Positions 1,867-26,753 of a stretch of 33,266 bases of DNA are shown in pieces (position 1 is the first letter of the stretch; every line of letters begins with the position of its first letter). The notes beneath the pieces were generated by a model. It was not told the DNA's origin and did no database searches. It was given only the letters and a program-made list of their open reading frames with translations. Both the position numbers and the translations under genes were made by a program. Source of the stretch: Chloroflexota bacterium (GTDB taxonomy: Bacteria > Chloroflexota > Dehalococcoidia > CAUJGQ01); assembly GCA_963170165.1 (NCBI GenBank), contig CAUJGQ010000045.1:1-33266 (forward strand), given 5' to 3'.

Positions 1867-2784
1867 CTAGACGCCGCCGAGCACCAGCGCGAGCAGCGCC
1901 TTTTGGGCGTGCAGCCGGTTGCCCGCCTGCTGGAAGATCACCGACTGAGGCGATTCCATTGCCTCGTCGAGGATCTCTTCCCCCCGATGGGCCGGCAGGT
2001 CGTGCATGATGACGGCATCGCTGGCCGCGACACGCATCAGATCCAGCGACACCTGGTAGCCCGCAAAGGCGCGCTGGCGGCGGATACGCTCGGCCTCTTG
2101 GCCCATGCTCGTCCACACATCAGTGTATACCACCTCAGCCCCACCCACGGCCTCTGCGGGCGAACGGACCACCGTCACCGACCCACCGGCATCAACCGCA
2201 TAGCCCTTTGCCGCTTCGAGCAGATCTCCCGGAGGCTCATACCCTGGTGGCGCGGCAATGGTCATCCGTCCACCGAGCATGGCGACCGCCATCATGAGCG
2301 AAACACAGACGTTGTTGCCATCTCCCACGTACGCGACGCGCTTACCCTGAACCGACCCGAAGCGCTCGGTGATGGTGAGCACATCCGCCAGTGCCTGACA
2401 GGGATGCTCCTCGTCCGACAAGGCATTGATCACGGGCACGTCCGCGAAGCGCGCCAGTTCGGTGATGGTTGCCTGAGCGAAGGTGCGGGCCACGATACAG
2501 TCAACGTACTCGTTGAGCACGCGTGCGATGTCTTTGACGGGCTCGCGCACGCCAATGCCGACTTCGGCCTGGGACAGGTAGATGGCATGGCCGCCGAGCT
2601 GCTGCATGGCCCGTTCGAAGCTCACGCGCGTTCGTAGCGACGGCTTCTCGAACACCAGCGCAATCGCCTTGCCATGCAGCAGGTCGCCGTGGCCCTCGTG
2701 CTTGAGCCGAAGTGCGGTGTCGATCACCAACCGCAGGTCGGCGGGGGAGAGATCAGCAAGCGTCAGCAGGTCGCGTCCGTACAT
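1867..2784 (-). CDS. argF: Ornithine carbamoyltransferase
   Basis: This 305-residue enzyme transfers the carbamoyl group from carbamoyl phosphate to ornithine to give citrulline in arginine synthesis. The carbamoyl-phosphate loop reads SLRTR at 49-53, the SxRTR form. HPCQ is at 127-130 and the SMG ornithine loop is in DVWTSMGQE around 222-230. The C-terminal HCLP motif reads HDLP (261-264), so the usual cysteine is an aspartate. The downstream PAHRGEEI context is conserved and argues against aspartate carbamoyltransferase (HPLP). ATG 2784 is preceded by a GAGG-type ribosome binding site. It is the first gene of the minus-strand argF-cdaA-ybbR run. Confidence 0.93.
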   Translation of the reverse strand: MYGRDLLTLADLSPADLRLVIDTALRLKHEGHGDLLHGKAIALVFEKPSLRTRVSFERAMQQLGGHAIYLSQAEVGIGVREPVKDIARVLNEYVDCIVARTFAQATITELARFADVPVINALSDEEHPCQALADVLTITERFGSVQGKRVAYVGDGNNVCVSLMMAVAMLGGRMTIAAPPGYEPPGDLLEAAKGYAVDAGGSVTVVRSPAEAVGGAEVVYTDVWTSMGQEAERIRRQRAFAGYQVSLDLMRVAASDAVIMHDLPAHRGEEILDEAMESPQSVIFQQAGNRLHAQKALLALVLGGV

Positions 2785-2814
2785 CGGTTCCTCAATGCTG
2801 CATGCGGCCGGGCC

Positions 2815-2843
2815 AGGATATCACCCGTCAATCGAGCACTCAA
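2815..2843 (-). promoter_or_regulatory. Candidate sigma-70 promoter for argF-cdaA-ybbR
   Basis: On the minus strand TTGAGT (2843-2838) and TATCCT (2820-2815) are separated by 17 bp. The predicted start near 2808 lies about 24 bases before the argF ATG. Each box matches consensus at four of six positions, so this is a moderate call. Confidence 0.4.
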
Positions 2844-2855
2844 TTTTGCCGCCTA

Positions 2856-2885
2856 TTGACGATAAGCCCTTGACGGGCTTATGTA
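2856..2885 (+). promoter_or_regulatory. Candidate comEA promoter with a palindrome in its spacer
   Basis: TTGACG (2856-2861) and TATGTA (2880-2885) are 18 bp apart. Between them lies a perfect inverted repeat, ATAAGCCC (2862-2869), TTGAC, GGGCTTAT (2875-2882). A palindrome filling the -35/-10 spacer is a typical repressor-operator placement. The -10 is weak. A second TTGACG at 2870 forms the loop of the palindrome. Confidence 0.4.
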
Positions 2886-2927
2886 ACCATACCGGAATGC
2901 GTGTGCGCTGCCTCTCGGGAGGGTACG

Positions 2928-3509
2928 ATGTCTGCCTCCCGCACGCTCCTCATCGGCCTGCTTGCCTTCGCCGCTGGCGGCCTGCTCATTGGCGCCGCGG
3001 TCATGCTCCGAATGCCGGCACGGTCTACCGCCCTGGAGGTGCGGCTGCCTCCGGCTTCCGCCATCCCCGCGGATGGCAGGCACATCGTCTCCGTTGCCGG
3101 CGCCGTCCAGCGCCCTGGGCTCTACCCGTTCGTCCCCGGTGATCGCATCGCCGACGCGATTGTCGCCGCAGGCGGTGCGGCAGACGGCGCGGACCTGCTC
3201 GCCATCAATCTTGCCCGGCGGCTGCGGGATGAAGACCAGGTGGTGGTGCCACGTCAGGGTGAAGCTGCTCCGGTCCAGGTCGCCAGCAGTGGCGGCGTAA
3301 CGGCCACGGGTCGCCGGATTGACGTGAACACCGCCAGCCCGTCTTCGCTCGAGTCGCTACCCGGTATTGGCTCCGTCCGTGCGCAGCGCATCGTCGAGTC
3401 ACGCCAGAAAGACGGCCCATTCTCCGAGCCGGCCGACCTGGTCAGACGCAAGATTATCCCTCAATCCGTGCTGGATGACATCATCGAGTACATCGACACC
3501 CGCTCATGA
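2928..3509 (+). CDS. comEA: ComEA family DNA-binding competence protein
   Basis: This 193-residue membrane-anchored protein binds incoming DNA during transformation. An N-terminal transmembrane segment (LLIGLLAFAAGGLLIGAAVML) is followed by an SLBB-type domain (IVSVAGAVQRPGLYPF and on) and a C-terminal helix-hairpin-helix DNA-binding domain (VNTASPSSLESLPGIGSVRA). I chose ATG 2928 because GGGAGGG sits five bases upstream and translation from it starts directly before the membrane segment; an in-frame GTG at 2901 lacks a comparable site. The stop overlaps the comEC start as ATGA. Domain order and length match ComEA of Gram-positive bacteria. A role in DNA uptake is inferred from the family. 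Confidence 0.92.
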   Translation: MSASRTLLIGLLAFAAGGLLIGAAVMLRMPARSTALEVRLPPASAIPADGRHIVSVAGAVQRPGLYPFVPGDRIADAIVAAGGAADGADLLAINLARRLRDEDQVVVPRQGEAAPVQVASSGGVTATGRRIDVNTASPSSLESLPGIGSVRAQRIVESRQKDGPFSEPADLVRRKIIPQSVLDDIIEYIDTRS

Positions 3510-5749
3510 CCGCTGCGCTGTTTGCTGCTGCGTGGGTCTTGGGCATCGCCTGCGCTGCCTGGGCCCCGGCCGGCGTTGCATCTGGCGTGACGATTGCCGG
3601 AGCGGCCCCCGTCTGGTTCACCCGTGGCCGCTCCCCCCGCGCTGCCTGCCTGGCGCTGTCCTGCGCCGGTATCGCGCTGTTGGGCGCCTGGCGCGGGCAG
3701 ATGGTGACGGACGGCGTCGCTCCCACCAGTGCTGCCCGCTTCGCCGGGGGCGGGCCCGTCCTTCTCACCGGCGTGGTCGCAGCGCCCCCCGACGAGCGAG
3801 AGCGGCACCAACGGCTGCGAGTGCAGGCACGCTGGATTGAGCGCGACGGCCACCGCGCCGGCGCCAGCGGCGGTGTGCTGGTGCGCATACCATTGGGCCG
3901 CCGACCCCGGGCCGGGGATGTGGTAGAGGTGGAGGGTACCCTTGAGCTTCCGGCGCAGTTGCCGGGCTTCGACTACCGCGCGTATCTCGCCCGGCAAGGC
4001 ATCGATGCAGAGATGGCCTACCCGCGCCTGCGCCGGATTGGCTACGAACCACCACCTGCACCGGTCCGAATGCTGCACCACGTTCGTCAGGCGGTGGTGG
4101 CCTCACTGAACCGGGCACTGCCGCAGCCGGAAGGGGCACTGGCCGCCGGCATCCTTACCGGCGTCCGCTCCGCCATCCCCCGTGACCTGACCGACGACTT
4201 CAACGCATCAGGCACTTCTCACCTAATTGCGATCTCCGGGTATAACGTCGCCCTCCTCGCTGGTGCGGTGATGAGCGTGCTCGCCGGTCTCATTCACCGG
4301 CGCTGGGCGGCGCTGATTGCCGCGCTGGTCATCACCTCTTACGCCATCTTTGCCGGGCTGTCTGCATCGGTCGCACGGGCGCTGATCATGGGCCTGCTCC
4401 TGATCTGGGTTGACCGGCTCGGACGGCCGTCCGCGCCACTGGTCTCCCTCTCACTGGCGGCCGCGCTGATGACCGGGCACGATCCTCGCATCCTCGATGA
4501 CCTAGGCTTCCAGCTCAGTTTCGCCGCCACCGCCGGCATCATGCTGCTACAGCCGGTCCTGCATGACGCTGGCCGGGGCTGGATTGGCGACGGCGATGGC
4601 TGGGGCCGGGCAGCGCTGCGGGCAGCGCAGGACACCGTCTCCGTCACGCTCGCTGCGACGGTCGCCACATTGCCCGTCATGCTGCATGCCTTCGGCCGTG
4701 TGTCGCTGGTGAGCGTGCCAGCAAATCTACTGGCGGCGCCGCTGTTCCCGGTGGTGCTGCTCACCAGCGGGCTGGCGGCACTGTGGGGATTGCTCTGGCC
4801 GCCGGCAGCGGTGCTCGGCGGGATGGTCGCCTGGGCCCCGCTTACGATGACCATCGCGATCGCCCGCGGCATGGCCGCGCTACCGATGGCACAGGTATCA
4901 ATTCCAGCTATCCCGGGCTGGGGCGCGCTTGTCCTGGGTGCAGGGCTAGGGCTCCTGCTGATGTGGCTGCGTCATAGCCGTCGCGCAGCGCCCGCGCCGC
5001 CGGATGGCCATTCGCTACGCATATCTCCGCTGCTGGTGGCGAGCGCGCTGGTGCTGGCGGCGCTGGCGTTGAATTTGTCTGCCGTCATCGGGGGACGCTC
5101 GGACACGGGGCGCCTGGAGGTGGTTTTCGCCGAGGCAGGAGGCGCGCCTATCGCGCTGGTCACCGGTCCCCAAGGGGAACGGGTGCTGGTCGACACCGGA
5201 CCATCGCCGGCAGCGCTGGCCAGAGCCGTCGATCCCCTGCTGCCGGTTGCCCGCCGTCAGGTCGACCTGGTCTTACTCACACGGACCAGCAGCACATCCA
5301 GTGGTGGGCTGGCCGAGGCGGTCGAGCGCTACCGGCCGGCCGCGTCACTTGCGCCGGAAGCTGAGCGTGATGCCACCGGCGGAGCGATTGCGACCATGCC
5401 GCTCACCGCAGGCAGCGTGGTGCATCTGTCGCGCGGCGCACGGATCGAGGTCGACGAACCGCAGGAGCGCGGCGGACGGCTGCGGCTTACGGCCGTTTGG
5501 GGCGAACGGCGCATCGCGCTGACACCCGATACCAGCGCAGACGCGGGCCCATTCCATCAAACCGGAGCGCCTCCCGGCGTGCTCGCCGTTGCCCTCGCTG
5601 AACAATGGCTCCCCGCCATCTCCGTGCGCGAGCAGGGACCCGTGCGGTTATCGACCGACGGCGCCAGACTGCGGCTGAGCCCGGCGCGCGGACCGTTGCC
5701 GGCGCTATCCGCGTCGACGGCTGGGAGAGGAACGGGCCTGCTTCGATGA
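3506..5749 (+). CDS. comEC: ComEC/Rec2 DNA-uptake channel with degenerate metallo-lactamase domain
   Basis: This 747-residue polytopic membrane protein is the channel that carries single-stranded DNA into the cytoplasm. An N-terminal OB-like extracytoplasmic domain (to about residue 170) is followed by the Competence domain with its signature, GILTGVRSAIP near 215 and SHLIAISGYNVALLAG near 238-253, and many membrane helices. The C-terminal beta-lactamase-like domain starts near residue 530. Its fold motifs remain (RVLVDTGPSP), but where the HxHxDH metal site should follow VDLVLLT the sequence is RTSSTSSGG, with no ligand residues. The gene is translationally coupled to comEA. It is full length, so loss of the metal site looks like divergence rather than truncation. 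Confidence 0.93.
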   Translation: MTAALFAAAWVLGIACAAWAPAGVASGVTIAGAAPVWFTRGRSPRAACLALSCAGIALLGAWRGQMVTDGVAPTSAARFAGGGPVLLTGVVAAPPDERERHQRLRVQARWIERDGHRAGASGGVLVRIPLGRRPRAGDVVEVEGTLELPAQLPGFDYRAYLARQGIDAEMAYPRLRRIGYEPPPAPVRMLHHVRQAVVASLNRALPQPEGALAAGILTGVRSAIPRDLTDDFNASGTSHLIAISGYNVALLAGAVMSVLAGLIHRRWAALIAALVITSYAIFAGLSASVARALIMGLLLIWVDRLGRPSAPLVSLSLAAALMTGHDPRILDDLGFQLSFAATAGIMLLQPVLHDAGRGWIGDGDGWGRAALRAAQDTVSVTLAATVATLPVMLHAFGRVSLVSVPANLLAAPLFPVVLLTSGLAALWGLLWPPAAVLGGMVAWAPLTMTIAIARGMAALPMAQVSIPAIPGWGALVLGAGLGLLLMWLRHSRRAAPAPPDGHSLRISPLLVASALVLAALALNLSAVIGGRSDTGRLEVVFAEAGGAPIALVTGPQGERVLVDTGPSPAALARAVDPLLPVARRQVDLVLLTRTSSTSSGGLAEAVERYRPAASLAPEAERDATGGAIATMPLTAGSVVHLSRGARIEVDEPQERGGRLRLTAVWGERRIALTPDTSADAGPFHQTGAPPGVLAVALAEQWLPAISVREQGPVRLSTDGARLRLSPARGPLPALSASTAGRGTGLLR

Positions 5750-19326: not shown

Positions 19327-20004
19327 ATGCAAGATTACTACGATGTGCTCGAGGTGAGCCCGCGTGCCGGCCACGACGTGATCGACGCCGCCTATCGTGC
19401 GCTGACGCGCCGGCTATCGCAGACCGCAGAAGATGACCCTACCGCGCAGCGCAAGCGCGAGCTGGTCAACGAGGCATATGCAGTGCTGAGCGCGCCACTC
19501 TCCCGGCAGCGCTTTGACGTCCAGCGCATCGAGCGCCATGCGAGCAAGCAACTGGCAATCGATGAATCTCAGCGGCAGGCCATTCGCCATCCCCTGGTCT
19601 ACTTCCTGCGGACACAGGGCTGGTACCTGCTCTTCCTCTATTCCTTCACGAATTTGCTGTGGATGGCGGTCTCCTTCGTGACGGGCGATGTCGGGTGGCG
19701 GGACGTGGCTTTTGTGGCGGTGTTTTCGGCCGTCATGACCGGCGCGGCCGGCCTGGCCTACTTCGCCAGCTGGTGGCGGATGAGCGCACCGGCGGTGGTC
19801 GTGGCCTGCGTCATCTATCCACCGGCCGGATATGCCCTCCTCCTATTAGCGTCTTGGCGCTCGCCGTCGGTCGAAGGCGCGATCCTGAGCGCTGTATTCT
19901 CGGTCTTCCTCACGCTGTTCACGCTCATTCACTCTCTCGACGGCGAGGCTTCACCCGACCAAGCCAGCAACGGAGACCTGCCCGGCACCGGGCTCAGTCT
20001 GTGA
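19327..20004 (+). CDS. J-domain-like membrane protein lacking HPD
   Basis: This 225-residue protein begins with a J-domain-like segment, YYDVLEVSPRAGHDVIDAAY to NEAYAVLSAPLSRQRFD (residues 4-64). The HPD tripeptide that stimulates DnaK ATPase is missing: the loop between helices II and III reads LTRRLSQTAEDDP. Four hydrophobic segments follow (about 100-119, 126-149, 155-176 and 184-203), and the C-terminus is acidic and polar. ATG 19327 has AGGG about eight bases upstream and gives the natural J-domain start. Without HPD it probably does not act as a DnaK co-chaperone. Its 3' end overlaps convergent hisB by 11 bp. Confidence 0.82.
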   Translation: MQDYYDVLEVSPRAGHDVIDAAYRALTRRLSQTAEDDPTAQRKRELVNEAYAVLSAPLSRQRFDVQRIERHASKQLAIDESQRQAIRHPLVYFLRTQGWYLLFLYSFTNLLWMAVSFVTGDVGWRDVAFVAVFSAVMTGAAGLAYFASWWRMSAPAVVVACVIYPPAGYALLLLASWRSPSVEGAILSAVFSVFLTLFTLIHSLDGEASPDQASNGDLPGTGLSL

Positions 20005-20599
20005 CAGTTCCCTTCGTGCTGGGGATGGCGCCCGCCGTGCGCGGGTCGACCCGCGTCGCGGCGCCCAGCGCGCGGGCCAGTGCCTTGAAGATCGCTTCAG
20101 CACGATGGTGGTCATTCTTGCCGTACAGCAGCCGCACATGCAGCGTCAACCCGGCCTGCTGTGCCAGCGACCAGAGGAAGTGCTCAATCATCTCGGTTGG
20201 CAGCGCGCCAATACGCTCGCCTGCAAACGGGATATCAAACACCGTGTACGGCCGGCCACTAATATCCACGGCGGCAAAGCCTAGGCACTCATCCATCGGC
20301 CAGAAGGCGTGCGCGGCACGAACGATGCCGGCTCGGCTGCCCAGCGCCCGATGCAGTGCCTGGCCAATGGCGATGCCGCAGTCCTCCACCAGATGATGCG
20401 CATCCCGATCCAAATCGCTCCGCAACGCGCGAACCTTGATGTCCATGAGGGAGTGCCGTGCCAGCTGCTCAACCAGGTGATCCAGCATTCCGATGCCGGT
20501 GGCGCACTCATAACGGCCGCTGCCGTCCAGGTTGACCGTGGCTTCAATCAGGGTCTCCGCGGTGTCACGCCGGACCTCACCTGCTCTGACCGAGCTCAC
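19994..20599 (-). CDS. hisB: Imidazoleglycerol-phosphate dehydratase
   Basis: This 201-residue monofunctional enzyme dehydrates imidazoleglycerol phosphate in histidine synthesis. It has the manganese-binding histidine motifs HHLVED (68-73) and HHRAEA (164-169), plus GIGMLDHLVEQLARH and SGRPYTVFDI. No phosphatase domain is attached. I chose GTG 20599 because it gives the standard N-terminus RRDTAETLIEATVNLDGSG and has GGGGGAGG six bases upstream. It overlaps the end of hisC by 23 bases, which implies coupled translation. It is the last his gene in the cluster seen here. Confidence 0.95.
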   Translation of the reverse strand: MSSVRAGEVRRDTAETLIEATVNLDGSGRYECATGIGMLDHLVEQLARHSLMDIKVRALRSDLDRDAHHLVEDCGIAIGQALHRALGSRAGIVRAAHAFWPMDECLGFAAVDISGRPYTVFDIPFAGERIGALPTEMIEHFLWSLAQQAGLTLHVRLLYGKNDHHRAEAIFKALARALGAATRVDPRTAGAIPSTKGTVTD

Positions 20600-21725
20600 G
20601 CGGCGCCTCCCCCATGGCATGCAGCGTCGCGAGCAGCCGGTCACTGTGCTCCGGCAGCCCGACGCTGATCCGAATCTTGTCCCGCAACCCATCGCGGCCG
20701 AAGTAGCGGGTGAAGATACCCTGCGCACGGAGCGCATCCCGCAGCAAGCCGGCATCACCGGCCGTGACGTCACACAAGATGAAGTTTGCAGCGGACGGCC
20801 GTGGCCGCAGGAACGGCACACTCGCCAGCAGGGCGCTCAGCCGCTCGCGCTCCGCGACGATTCGTGCCACCCGCTCCAACAGCAGCTCACGGTCTTCCAG
20901 GGACGCGACAATTGCAGCTTCCGCCGCGACATTGATGTTGTAAGGCGGCTTGATCGCCATCAGCAGATCCGCCAACGGCCGCGGCATGACGCCATAGCCG
21001 GCCCGCAAACCTGCTAGCCCTGCCCACTTGCTGAAGGTGCGGATCACGATCAGGTTGTCCCGGTCCGCTACCAGCGGAACTACCGACCCACCGCTGAACT
21101 CGATGTAGGCTTCATCCACCACTACCGGTACCCCCAGCGCGAGTAGCCGGTCCAGATCCTCGCGCGGCAGCAGGTTGCCGCTGGGGTTGTTTGGCGAGGC
21201 GACGAAGATCAGCTTGGTGCGCTCGTCAACCGCCGCCTCGACCGCGGGCACATCAACGCTGAAGTCATCATGCCGGGGCACGGGCACGTAGGCGCCGCCG
21301 CAGACCGCCGCGGTAAAGACGTACATCCCAAACGTGGGCACCAGATCAATCACGTGGTCGCCGGGGGCGAGCAGCGCGCGGGCGAGCAGATCGATCAGCT
21401 CATCGCTGCCGGCCCCGGCGACGATGCAATCCGGTGCGGCACCGGTGTACTCCGCCAGCGCGGCACGCACGCGAAGCTGATCAGGATCAGGGTAAATGTT
21501 ATAGCCGTGCAGCGGATGGAGCGCCGCCAACGCCGCCAGCGCCCGCGGCGACGGGCCGTAAAGGTTCTCGTTGCCGTCCAGCTTGACGATGCGCTCCGGC
21601 GGGATGCCCAGCCGCGCCGCCGCCACCTCCACCGGTTCCACCGGTTCGTAGTGCGCCATCCGCAGCAACTCGGGCCGGACGTACCTTAGCAGCCCATAAC
21701 TCATTGTCGTGCCGGTAGATTCCAT
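20577..21725 (-). CDS. hisC: Histidinol-phosphate aminotransferase
   Basis: This 382-residue class I/II PLP aminotransferase converts imidazole-acetol phosphate to histidinol phosphate. Landmarks are KLDGNENLYGPSP at 48-60, SPNNPSG at 177-183, VVVDEAYIEF at 201-210 and the PLP lysine K233 in TFSKWAGLAGLRAGYG. ATG 21725 is used, with AGGAAAGGG upstream; ATG 21704 in frame is an alternative. It overlaps hisB at its 3' end and follows hisD after a 111-bp GC-rich gap. Genome position in the his cluster supports HisC over other aromatic aminotransferases. Confidence 0.95.
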   Translation of the reverse strand: MESTGTTMSYGLLRYVRPELLRMAHYEPVEPVEVAAARLGIPPERIVKLDGNENLYGPSPRALAALAALHPLHGYNIYPDPDQLRVRAALAEYTGAAPDCIVAGAGSDELIDLLARALLAPGDHVIDLVPTFGMYVFTAAVCGGAYVPVPRHDDFSVDVPAVEAAVDERTKLIFVASPNNPSGNLLPREDLDRLLALGVPVVVDEAYIEFSGGSVVPLVADRDNLIVIRTFSKWAGLAGLRAGYGVMPRPLADLLMAIKPPYNINVAAEAAIVASLEDRELLLERVARIVAERERLSALLASVPFLRPRPSAANFILCDVTAGDAGLLRDALRAQGIFTRYFGRDGLRDKIRISVGLPEHSDRLLATLHAMGEAPRELGQSR

Positions 21726-21836: not shown

Positions 21837-23180
<1,344 letters not shown>

Positions 23181-23205: not shown

Positions 23206-23970
23206 TCAGCGCCGCCCGAAGAACCGTTCGGCCGCTTCGAGTGCCCGCTCGCTCGCCTGCTCGATATAGGCATCGATGTGCGCTGTTGAGACATGGCGGA
23301 TGGTGCGTTCCAGCACGTCGGGGATCTCCTGCACGAAGCGGTCAATCGCATCGTCTGACTCCAGGCCGGAGCCCCGCAGATGCCTGCCCCCTTGGAACTT
23401 GAAGCGGTCCCAGGTCGGCGGGTGGCGGGTGATGTCGATGGCGACGTCCAACCAGCGTTTGAGCGTCTCAGAGTCGAGGAACCCGACATCGAAGGCGAGC
23501 GAACAGGACTCCAGCGCTGATCGAATGCCGGTGCTGAGCTCTGGGTCCTCCCGCCGCCGCCGGTCCAGCTCATACTGAAGCACCCGGTCCATGATGTTAG
23601 CCTGAGCGCCGCCGCCCAGCGCCGACAACTGGCCGAAGTGCGGGCGATAGACCGCCGTGATCCAGGTCTCGTCCAGCGCCAGATGGCCAATGTACCCAGC
23701 CACCCAGGCGGCAGGGGCCGGGTCAAGATTCGCGGCATCCGCCAGGTGGCTATGCTCGGCGAACATGGCCGCCACCGAATCCTGATGCGCCGTGACCGCG
23801 AGGTCGAAGAAGTGCGTTCGCTCCCGTTCCCAGCGAGTCAACACACGAATGTCCGGCGATGTCGAGCCGAGGAAGTAAGCGCCGGGTTGTGCCATCACCG
23901 GCGAGCCGCCCAGCCGTTGAGCGACGTCGCGCGCCATCGCCATGTGTAAGAAGATCGGTGGCATGCGCAC
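23206..23970 (-). CDS. Zinc-dependent phospholipase C-like protein
   Basis: This 254-residue protein resembles the zinc-dependent phospholipase C/S1-P1-like family. It begins MPPIFLHMAMARDVAQRLG, followed by YFLGSTSPDIRVLTRWER, ERTHFFDLA and WVAGYIGHLALDETW, with the spaced histidines and aspartates that form a trinuclear zinc site in this fold. No signal peptide is apparent, so it is probably cytoplasmic. The real substrate is not known. It sits between hisG and hisD on the same strand with gaps of 27 and 25 bp, so it is cotranscribed with histidine genes although no histidine role is known for the family. Confidence 0.8.
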   Translation of the reverse strand: MRMPPIFLHMAMARDVAQRLGGSPVMAQPGAYFLGSTSPDIRVLTRWERERTHFFDLAVTAHQDSVAAMFAEHSHLADAANLDPAPAAWVAGYIGHLALDETWITAVYRPHFGQLSALGGGAQANIMDRVLQYELDRRRREDPELSTGIRSALESCSLAFDVGFLDSETLKRWLDVAIDITRHPPTWDRFKFQGGRHLRGSGLESDDAIDRFVQEIPDVLERTIRHVSTAHIDAYIEQASERALEAAERFFGRR

Positions 23971-23997: not shown

Positions 23998-25416
23998 TCA
24001 GCCGTCGAGGCCATCACGGAACCGTGTCACCAACTGTTCGACCAACCGGCGGCGCGGACCGTCAATGCCGGACGTGCGGGTGATGACGCAGTTCGTTGAG
24101 TCGAAGACATGGTCCACCTTCTTCAGGCGGTTTGCCCGAAAACTTGAACCCGTCTCCGTACCTTCTATCAGAATCTCGCTGTCCTCCGGCACAAACGCCT
24201 CGCTGGCGCCGTTGACCGGAATCACCTGATACCTGCCCAAGTGCCGCAGCCGGGCGAAGTGGTCGGCAATGTTGGGGTACTCGGAAGCAACCCGAATGGC
24301 AGTGTGGCCCTGTCCGCGCCACCATCCCAGCGCTTCTGCCAGCGTGGTAGCCGGCACATCTTCGCTGACGGCAGCGGCGATACCGTAGCGCGAGCGCTGC
24401 AAGTCCAGCGCCTCTGCCACCGGGCTGGCTGGAAAGGCAAAGAGGTGATCAAGCAGCCAATCGCGGCCGGTGATGGCGAGGTCGAAGTTGCCCAGGGCCA
24501 CCTGCTGCGGCATATCCTGCGGCCGGATGACCTTCACCTCCAGCCCATCAATGCCGCTGGCCGGCCGGCGAACATAGCTCTTTTCGCCGTAGCCGTCGAA
24601 TGTCAGACCGGCGGCAGCCAGTGCGGCGAAGGTGTGACGTTGGGCGTGCCCGTCTGGCACAGCCAAGCGGACGCCCTCCCGCTCTCGACCAGCTGCCGGT
24701 GCGAGCCGCGATTCCAGCTGGGAAGCACGTGGGAGCGCGAGCGTCCCCGGCGGCACGGCCGGCGCCGCCATCGCCAGCAGGCGGCCGATAACCGCGCCCA
24801 GATCACGGCCCGCCAGCCCGCGGCGCCCAGCGATCAGCCAGGCCGAAGCGTCGAGGAGCGTGACGAGCGGCTCCAGCCCATGAGCGAGCACATCGGATGG
24901 GTCCTTGACGGCCAGAATAGCGAGGTCGGCATCCTCCGGCGGATAGGCTTCGGCCGCGCCCCAGACACTGTGAATGCTGTAGCGGGCAAACCGCATTCTG
25001 CGGGCAAACCGCTCAGCGATGCCGGGGAACTCCGAGACAATCCGCAGGCCACGCACCCCTGACCAGGAACGCAACGGGCCCAGCCGCTGCAGCGTCTCTG
25101 GAGCGGCAGCGGCAACCAGTTGATGACGGCCGAAGCCTAGCGGCCGGAGCACCGTGACATCGTCATAGGGGAACCGCGACTGCAGTTCCTCCACCCAGGC
25201 CGCGGAGCAGATACCGAAGTCGTAGTTGCCCAGTGCCACCTGGATGGGAATATCCTTCTCGCGAAACACGCGCAGGGCGACGTCGTCGCGACCTTCGAGC
25301 GATAGTCGCAACGAGCGCGACCCATCCGCGTAGGGTGAGCAAGCGAGGCCGCCGGCCGCCAGCGCCGCCGCCACGGGCCCGCGCAGGTCACCGGTAGGCA
25401 GGGCAAGCGTTAGCAC
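23998..25416 (-). CDS. hisG: Tandem-duplicated ATP phosphoribosyltransferase HisG
   Basis: HisG joins ATP and PRPP in the first step of histidine synthesis. This 472-residue protein carries two short-form HisG units. Residues 1-200 include MLTLALPTGDLR, REKDIPIQVALGNYDFGI, LRIVSEFPGIAERF. Residues 248-450 repeat them as VRLAVPDGH, RPQDMPQQVALGNFDLAI, IRVASEYPNIADHF. The PRPP loop is present only in the second unit (ETGSSFRANRL, 421-431); the matching place in the first reads KDPSDVLAHGL (171-181). So the N-terminal copy is probably non-catalytic. Normal short HisG is about 210 residues. GTG 25416 overlaps the hisZ stop by seven bases, with GGGGAGGGG just upstream. Confidence 0.9.
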   Translation of the reverse strand: MLTLALPTGDLRGPVAAALAAGGLACSPYADGSRSLRLSLEGRDDVALRVFREKDIPIQVALGNYDFGICSAAWVEELQSRFPYDDVTVLRPLGFGRHQLVAAAAPETLQRLGPLRSWSGVRGLRIVSEFPGIAERFARRMRFARYSIHSVWGAAEAYPPEDADLAILAVKDPSDVLAHGLEPLVTLLDASAWLIAGRRGLAGRDLGAVIGRLLAMAAPAVPPGTLALPRASQLESRLAPAAGREREGVRLAVPDGHAQRHTFAALAAAGLTFDGYGEKSYVRRPASGIDGLEVKVIRPQDMPQQVALGNFDLAITGRDWLLDHLFAFPASPVAEALDLQRSRYGIAAAVSEDVPATTLAEALGWWRGQGHTAIRVASEYPNIADHFARLRHLGRYQVIPVNGASEAFVPEDSEILIEGTETGSSFRANRLKKVDHVFDSTNCVITRTSGIDGPRRRLVEQLVTRFRDGLDG

Positions 25417-26666
25417 TGGCCCCTCCCCAACGCCGCCAGCACCAGATCCATGCTGGCGGCTCCCAGGTCGCCGCCCGATTGGACATCATGCAGCACGTAG
25501 CGGGCGGCGCCGCGGGCGGGGTCCACGGTCAAGGTCCACCGGCAGGCAGGATGGCGGCGCGAGCCTACCAGCTCGGCGCAGAATCCGGCCGCCTGCAACT
25601 CACTCGCGACGCTCAGCGCCAGTCCGGCCGCCTCCGCCGAGACGGCGGCAGGCTGGACCAGGACGACGGGGCCGCGCTCTGGCTCGATCTCCGGCATCCT
25701 GGCCATGACGTGTTCCATAGCCAACCCAAAGCCGCAGGCCGGAACGGCGCTACCGGCGGTCCGGTGCACCAGGCTGTCGTATCGGCCGCCACCGCCGGCA
25801 TCACTGCCATCACTGAGGGCGAAGCGGAAGATAGGGCCGGTGTAGTACTCGAAGTCGCGGGCCAAGGTCATCGAGATGTCGAATGGGCAGCCGGTGGCCG
25901 CCAGGGCCCGCGCCACGAGATCGAGCTCATCCAGCGCCGGTGCCATCCCCGGCACCGCTTCGGCGAACACGGCACGCAGATTAGACAAGTAGCCGGCATC
26001 GGTTCCGGTGACCGTGAACAGCAGGTCAAGCGGGGCGCGCACGTCAGGCAGGCGGCCCAGGATCTCCTGGGTAACCGACAGATCGCCGTCGAGGATGCGG
26101 TCGTAGCGCTCTGCCTGCTCGTCCGGAGCGAAGCCAGCCCGCGCCAGCAGCGCCCGCAGCACGCCGGTATGCGACAGTCGTACGCGGACGTCTCCCAGCC
26201 CCAGGCGCTGCAGCACGCGGCGACCGGCGGCCATCAGCTCGATATCGCCCGCCGGCCATGTATGACCGTACACCTCGGCGCCACACTGCCACAGCTCACG
26301 CGGTTCGTCGCCCTGTGCGAAGCGGAAAATATTCTGCACATAGAATAGCTTCGCGGGCTCATCCGTGAAGTGCTCGGCATACACCCGCGCGGCCGGAATC
26401 GTCGTGTCCGGCCGCAGCACGACCCGCTCGCCACTCCAGCCGTCCCAGTCCAAGAAGGAGTAGACGCGGTCCAGCAGGTGCGGCGACAGTGTGCCGGCAC
26501 TGGTGAACAGGTGCAACCACTCAATCGTGGGAGTACGCACTTCCTGGTAGCCCCAGCCGAGCAGTTCGTCTCGAAACGCCCGTTCGATACGGCGGAAGCG
26601 GGTCATGTCCTCGGGGAGCAGGTCGCGCATACCGCGCCCGCGCAGAAGTTCGACGGCAGCAGTCAT
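25410..26666 (-). CDS. hisZ: ATP phosphoribosyltransferase regulatory subunit HisZ
   Basis: This 418-residue protein is a histidyl-tRNA synthetase paralogue that activates short-form HisG and mediates histidine feedback. It shows class II core blocks: GMRDLLPEDMTRFRRIERAF, the stretch RVVLRPDTTIPAARVYAEHF, LFYVQNIFRFAQGDEPRELWQ, and FEYYTGPIFRF, AGGGGRYDSL. Adjacency to hisG and divergence from true HisRS support HisZ. I chose ATG 26666: an in-frame TTG at 26720 has no ribosome binding site, and a TACAAT -10 box lies between the two. The C-terminal region (about 325 on) resembles an anticodon-binding-like domain. It leads the his cluster. Confidence 0.88.
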   Translation of the reverse strand: MTAAVELLRGRGMRDLLPEDMTRFRRIERAFRDELLGWGYQEVRTPTIEWLHLFTSAGTLSPHLLDRVYSFLDWDGWSGERVVLRPDTTIPAARVYAEHFTDEPAKLFYVQNIFRFAQGDEPRELWQCGAEVYGHTWPAGDIELMAAGRRVLQRLGLGDVRVRLSHTGVLRALLARAGFAPDEQAERYDRILDGDLSVTQEILGRLPDVRAPLDLLFTVTGTDAGYLSNLRAVFAEAVPGMAPALDELDLVARALAATGCPFDISMTLARDFEYYTGPIFRFALSDGSDAGGGGRYDSLVHRTAGSAVPACGFGLAMEHVMARMPEIEPERGPVVLVQPAAVSAEAAGLALSVASELQAAGFCAELVGSRRHPACRWTLTVDPARGAARYVLHDVQSGGDLGAASMDLVLAALGRGQC

Positions 26667-26699
26667 GAGCCGGGCAGCCTCGCGCTCGGGATCAGCCCG

Positions 26700-26705
26700 A
26701 TTGTA
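26700..26705 (-). promoter_or_regulatory. Possible -10 box for the his cluster
   Basis: TACAAT on the minus strand at 26705-26700 would start transcription near 26693, upstream of hisZ ATG 26666. No good -35 is visible at 16-18 bp. It supports the shorter hisZ start. Confidence 0.35.
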
Positions 26706-26753
26706 CCGGACCTTGCCCAACAGGGAAGGGCAGCCGGCAGATCGGTAACGCGG

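Follow-up and report, generated by a model that had tools for sequence, protein, structure and literature searches.

The window analysed here, i.e. the whole stretch of 33,266 nucleotides, carries a hisG gene in which two HisG domains are joined in one reading frame and hold only jointly the PRPP loop and the catalytic residues of short-form HisG enzymes. We consider it likely, with a probability of roughly 80%, that this gene, called hisGG in the following, encodes a covalent, obligately asymmetric pseudo-dimer of ATP phosphoribosyltransferase (ATP-PRT) that is regulated by HisZ and has one site in its C-terminal half (C half), which is completed by Arg34 of the N-terminal half (N half). ATP-PRT, the first enzyme of the histidine pathway, controls its flux under feedback regulation and serves as a model of allostery. 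The gene and its parts are located as follows.

23998 to 25416, minus strand: hisGG, the tandem HisG fusion, 472 amino acids in a single frame with GTG start; the one-ORF architecture is conserved.
24772 to 25416, minus strand: N half, approximately residues 1-215, with HisG fold, lost PRPP loop and retained trans arginine, the putative pseudoenzyme half; based on PF01634 (66.8 bits) and the AlphaFold secondary structure.
24679 to 24771, minus strand: linker, approximately residues 216-246, with the lowest confidence in the model (pLDDT down to 63) and variable in the alignment.
23998 to 24678, minus strand: C half, approximately residues 247-472, stop codon included, with HisG fold and intact PRPP loop, the putative catalytic half; based on PF01634 (96.1 bits).

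The frame is uninterrupted from the GTG at 25416 to 23998, and both halves separately reach the Pfam family HisG (PF01634), for which the cutoff is 25.5 bits. The NCBIfam model TIGR00070 for hisG matched the protein in two stretches with 190.8 bits (cutoff 75.75), and no Pfam family other than HisG was listed for it. An earlier note made from the sequence had described the gene as a tandem HisG fusion with halves that are alike along their length, and this description is borne out by the two PF01634 domains in one frame, by its conservation across the class and by the comparison of the N half with the C half (approximately 88 bits, E about 1e-26). The idea that the N half might be an unrelated periplasmic-binding-like domain fails, since it has its own PF01634 match, since its PDB sequence matches are HisG when it is taken alone, and since the AlphaFold model matches HisG. 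A Pfam profile search of the 4.41 Mb genome returned no third HisG match; hisGG is the sole HisG there.

The distribution of active-site residues was counted in an alignment of 112 N halves, 111 C halves and 41 unduplicated HisG proteins of the phylum, using the numbering of the short-form enzyme HisGS from Psychrobacter arcticus. The latter is a symmetric dimer with one active site per subunit, and Arg56 of each subunit is reported to extend into the partner's site, where it stabilizes the departing pyrophosphate of PRPP (PMC9734150). This trans role is taken from the literature, and the hypothesis of a trans arginine in hisGG was derived from that paper and the two halves in the window before the columns were counted; it was formed after the sequence had been seen, and the counts are therefore not blind. 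The residues in question have the following positions in the window.

24142 to 24165, minus strand: PRPP loop of the C half, residues 418-425 (EGTETGSS); based on alignments and column counts.
24886 to 24915, minus strand: degenerate PRPP-loop position of the N half, approximately residues 168-177 (LAVKDPSDVL); based on alignments, the loop residues being lost across N halves.
25315 to 25317, minus strand: Arg34, equivalent of Arg56 of P. arcticus HisGS; an invariant column in one alignment, with the function taken from PMC9734150.
24574 to 24576, minus strand: Tyr281, the C-half counterpart of Arg56, where the arginine is lost (Arg in 0 of 111 C halves).
24646 to 24648, minus strand: His257 in the motif PDGH, located where P. 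arcticus HisGS has its catalytic Arg32 (His in 111 of 111 C halves).

The C half contains the sequence ETGSSFRANRL, and the N half shows AVKDPSDVLAHGL at the equivalent place, hence the PRPP loop has been lost in the N half. The claim of the earlier note that the loop is kept by the second half only can be extended to the relatives, because Gly181 of the loop is present in all 111 C halves and all 41 unduplicated proteins versus 4 of the 112 N halves. The equivalent of Arg73, a residue in contact with the ATP gamma-phosphate (PMC10795190), was found in all C halves (111/111) and in 48 of 112 N halves, and the corresponding numbers for Asp94 are 111/111 and 25/112. The equivalent of Arg56 is distributed the other way round: it is Arg in 110 and Lys in the remaining two of 112 N halves, Lys in one and Arg in none of 111 C halves, and Arg in 39 of 41 unduplicated proteins. 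Among 70 columns conserved in unduplicated HisG, ten are kept in the C half and lost only in the N half, and these losses centre on the PRPP loop (176, 180, 181, 183) and on the ATP side (73, 92, 94). The losses restricted to the C half amount to three columns (33, 56 and 205), and a charged residue is concerned only at 56. Several conserved columns are retained in both halves, and the fold of the N half is kept.

At the level of sequence, these patterns support the pair of a catalytic and a non-catalytic copy that had been proposed in the earlier note. The trans arginine, lost in the live half and kept in the dead half, had been missed there, and this reciprocal pattern turns the pair into a specific complementation mechanism; it suggests that the dead copy lends the live copy its missing arginine. 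The main observation that is awkward for a simple transfer of the known mechanism comes from proteins likely belonging to Dehalococcoides, whose N half carries Lys in place of the trans arginine, because the exchange R56K decreased the activity of P. arcticus HisGS about 24-fold (PMC9734150). Moreover, the exchange R32A in the same enzyme had a 25-fold cost (PMC9734150), and the invariant His at position 32 of the live half indicates that its chemistry probably differs in detail from that of the studied enzymes. As a separate observation, the C halves have a conserved RRP motif at the P. arcticus positions 58-59 (residues 283-284 in the window) with Arg in 96/111 and 90/111 sequences, respectively. 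It adjoins the position of the lost Arg56, and its first residue is Tyr in N halves and in unduplicated HisG.

The proposed mechanism combines our observations of two HisG domains, complementary residues, a single origin, the pairing with hisZ, purifying selection and a two-half model with the literature on Arg56. According to it, a single tandem duplication of hisG would have taken place early in the history of the class. The N copy would have lost its PRPP loop and become a pseudoenzyme retaining the fold, the dimer interface and the arginine. The C copy would have preserved its PRPP loop and the contacts to ATP; its arginine, left without a site to act on, would have disappeared. Each chain would then fold as one dimer with a single active site in the C half, which would bind PRPP and ATP and perform the chemistry, and the N half would act as dimer partner and donor of Arg34, predicted to enter this site in trans. 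The HisGG chain is further expected to dock on HisZ, which would mediate activation and histidine inhibition. As suggested in the earlier note, the fusion might also alter the allostery. In the known hetero-octamers, two HisGS dimers sandwich four HisZ subunits (PMC9734150), from which a complex HisZ4(HisGG)2 would follow; by this analogy, it probably has two active sites rather than four. We regard the chances as evenly balanced that, with a one-site dimer in such a complex, the pseudo-half is both the arginine donor and the path by which HisZ activation and histidine inhibition reach the live half. If true, activation would work by positioning an arginine that is owned by a separately evolving domain.

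The structure prediction for the fusion alone, which had been suggested in the earlier note, gave a confident two-half model. The AlphaFold2 model, built with 81 sequences, has a mean pLDDT of 93.9 and a pTM of 0.91 across all 472 residues, and both modelled halves show the same order of helices and strands with a weak spot only in the linker. Such a high pTM in a two-domain chain would point to a confident relative placement of the halves, and it is indirect evidence for an arrangement as in a dimer. The best PDB matches of the model are HisG chains, including 6FCA and 5M8H from P. arcticus, with TMt values of 0.88-0.89; since the fold search compares single chains, the TMq of about 0.41 corresponds to one half matching HisG and not to the dimer arrangement. 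The model also bears on an intermolecular version of the complementation, in which domain-swapped or chain-linked dimers form and a C half is completed by the N half from a different chain. The complementary residues fit this version equally well, and the separate genes for the halves in two relatives (L054 and L064) indicate that covalent linkage is not strictly needed. However, the single-chain model is confident over its entire length, and with a linker of about 30 residues swapping is apparently not needed. We consider an exchange of halves between chains unlikely.

The regulatory partner is encoded directly upstream of hisGG.

25410 to 26720, minus strand: hisZ, regulatory subunit, in which motif 2 of HisRS is lost and FEYYTG and GGRYD are kept; the exact start codon is uncertain.

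The TAA stop of hisZ overlaps the GTG start of hisGG by 7 nt (GTGCTAA). TIGR00443 was the best NCBIfam match of the HisZ-like protein, with 193 bits below the cutoff of 271.65. A separate histidyl-tRNA synthetase HisS is present on contig C105, and the loss of motif 2 from the HisZ-like protein is as expected of a regulatory paralogue. The pairing of the fusion with HisZ, another assumption made from the window, holds beyond it, because all 31 relatives examined likewise have hisZ as the gene immediately upstream of the tandem one. The regulatory domain HisG_C (PF08029) gave no match in the genome of the window or in any other tandem genome, and it is present in 20 of 21 genomes with a single HisG. 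Hence, the tandem protein takes the place of the short-form HisG. From its status as sole copy and its his operon context we infer that the hisGG product has ATP-PRT activity, is activated by HisZ and is inhibited by histidine. The HisZ proteins of the tandem genomes also share a nearly invariant stretch, YSFLDWDGWSGERVVLRPD, which could be a lineage-specific docking or regulatory feature.

The phylogeny of the halves, likewise proposed earlier, points to a single duplication that preceded the radiation of the class. In the maximum-likelihood tree, the N halves form a clade with support of 100 and the C halves one with 96, and both together are separated from the unduplicated HisG with 97; the method is quick and these values should not be over-read. 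The stem branch of the N halves is longer than that of the C halves (1.07 vs 0.32 changes per site), which is expected when one copy has lost the catalytic constraint. Among the close relatives compared, dN/dS was mostly 0.03-0.2 in both halves, hence the N half is maintained by purifying selection. The closest unduplicated relative in this region of the tree is the long-form HisG of locus L072 (genome G053), located at about 5018 to 5422 and onward on the plus strand. It carries HisG_C and has both GH, a motif of the live half, and SRSYRP, a motif of the dead half, and it is a candidate for the nearest relative of the pre-duplication gene. This combination makes a long-form ancestor possible, which would have lost HisG_C and gained HisZ later.

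These data are also relevant for the role of the N half. It might have become a new regulatory ligand-binding domain derived from HisG, for example a nucleotide or histidine sensor, that acts allosterically and donates no arginine. Its retained fold, the several columns conserved in both halves, an own conserved loop of the PPEDAD type and its long stem are in line with such a function. On the other hand, the histidine sensor HisZ is still present at every tandem locus examined, and the only charged catalytic residue that survives in the N half but not in the C half is exactly the known trans residue, for which a pure sensor would have no need. We give a pure sensor little credence, whereas the roles of sensor and arginine donor are not exclusive. 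Even more improbable is that the N half represents a decaying, functionless relic attached to a self-sufficient HisG. The absence of the PRPP loop and the faster evolution on the N stem would be compatible with decay; however, the N half is fused or adjacent in every complete tandem locus examined, it is under purifying selection similar to that on the C half with Arg34 kept invariant, and the C half is without the residue needed in trans.

The fusion is widespread in the class. About half of 60 relatives have two HisG domains, nearly all of them in one frame of 460-560 amino acids. Some relatives contain longer open frames of 640-752 amino acids; a fusion with HisZ was rejected in these cases, because hisZ is a separate ORF upstream and the lengths reflect an open frame without stops. 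In a genome scan, both halves were found in one ORF at all 80 named loci among the best 80 matches listed, all of which were records of Chloroflexi or Dehalococcoidia or unclassified MAGs. The full-length fusion occurs in approximately 120 of 196 genomes of the Dehalococcoidia (Chloroflexota) that are at least 85% complete, and among 400 genomes sampled across the phylum full-length matches were obtained in Dehalococcoidia only; in the other classes of this sample only the C-half positions were matched, the same as for single HisG. Although the halves are encoded separately in two relatives, the possibility that two separate hisG genes were joined by an assembly error or, as considered in the earlier note, by a frame error is refuted to a negligible residual doubt by these independent assemblies, including complete single-contig chromosomes, and by the low dN/dS in both halves.

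Three single-contig genomes of 1.36-1.52 Mb have 19-28 reductive dehalogenase matches each. They are likely Dehalococcoides, in which the tandem HisG is apparently present, and we infer that G087, G096 and G308 are Dehalogenimonas. In L064, the N and C halves are separate genes (about 3985 to 5393, plus strand) with a TGATG stop/start overlap. Separate genes occur also in L054 (about 2358 to 3618, plus strand), where the second gene begins with a GTG just ahead of the TAG that ends the first one, so that they overlap. These halves are located inside the N and C groups of the tree and therefore look like fissions or a retained unfused state; for the split in L054, a frameshift in the linker keeps a small probability. 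Both cases are consistent with halves working as a heterodimer. G518 and G500, which show a C half only, were rejected as further split genes, because their contigs end there.

Among the characterized enzymes, hisGG is closest to a variant of the short-form HisGS, which acts together with HisZ in P. arcticus (5M8H), Acinetobacter baumannii (8OY0), Lactococcus lactis and Thermotoga maritima (1USY). Both have the catalytic fold of HisG, no HisG_C and HisZ as partner, and the catalytic half shares the PRPP loop and the ATP-contacting arginine with HisGS, whose arginine acts in trans across the dimer. However, HisGS is a symmetric homodimer of subunits with about 214 amino acids and two identical sites, whereas hisGG has two diverged halves in 472 amino acids with a single intact site: Arg56 is confined to one half and the PRPP loop to the other one, and the live half carries His in place of Arg32. 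The combination of PRPP loop and catalytic residues that characterizes HisGS is provided by the two halves jointly only, the C half contributing the loop and Arg73 and the N half contributing Arg56. As hisGG is not a single-domain, self-complete subunit of a symmetric homodimer, it should be regarded as a variant and not as a plain member of HisGS. The long-form HisGL of Escherichia coli (1H3D) and Campylobacter jejuni (4YB7) has the same catalytic fold but carries the C-terminal regulatory domain HisG_C and acts without HisZ, whereas the tandem genomes lack a HisG_C match.

Gene elongation by tandem duplication and fusion is known for other histidine genes, namely hisA/hisF, hisB and hisD, and the remaining his genes are reported to show no internal repetition (PMC7284861). 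The event in hisGG is of the same kind; however, those elongations have been proposed to predate LUCA, whereas hisGG is limited to one class as searched and one of its halves is catalytically dead. It represents a recent, lineage-restricted elongation in a pathway where only very ancient ones have been proposed. The relevant passages of PMC1963479 and PMC8305728 describe no hisG fusion, and no published description of a tandem HisG was found in the open literature searched, mostly without subscription papers. The symmetry of the ATP-PRT dimer makes it hard to separate the roles of a subunit in its own site and in that of its partner; in hisGG, the cis and trans functions would reside in different halves of one chain and could be mutated one at a time. 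Furthermore, when such proteins are annotated as plain HisG, an unusual enzyme is concealed, and the class concerned very likely comprises cultured bacteria that dehalogenate.

Further genes of the same operon are located downstream of hisGG.

21837 to 23180, minus strand: hisD (PF00815, 496.7 bits).
20577 to 21725, minus strand: hisC-like aminotransferase (PF00155).
19994 to 20821, minus strand: hisB with the IGPD domain only (PF00475, 193.1 bits); start codon uncertain.

Between hisGG and hisD, an ORF of 254 amino acids (23206 to 23970, minus strand) shows a sub-threshold match to Zn-dependent phospholipase C (25.2 bits vs a cutoff of 26.8). As a guess, it might encode a metal phosphatase of the his pathway, for example a histidinol-phosphate phosphatase; the same genome has a PHP-type candidate for this enzyme just at its cutoff and HisN-like proteins below theirs. 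In 18 relatives, the ORF occupies the same place in the operon, whether their HisG is tandem or single, and H9, D40, H53, H96 and D100 are invariant.
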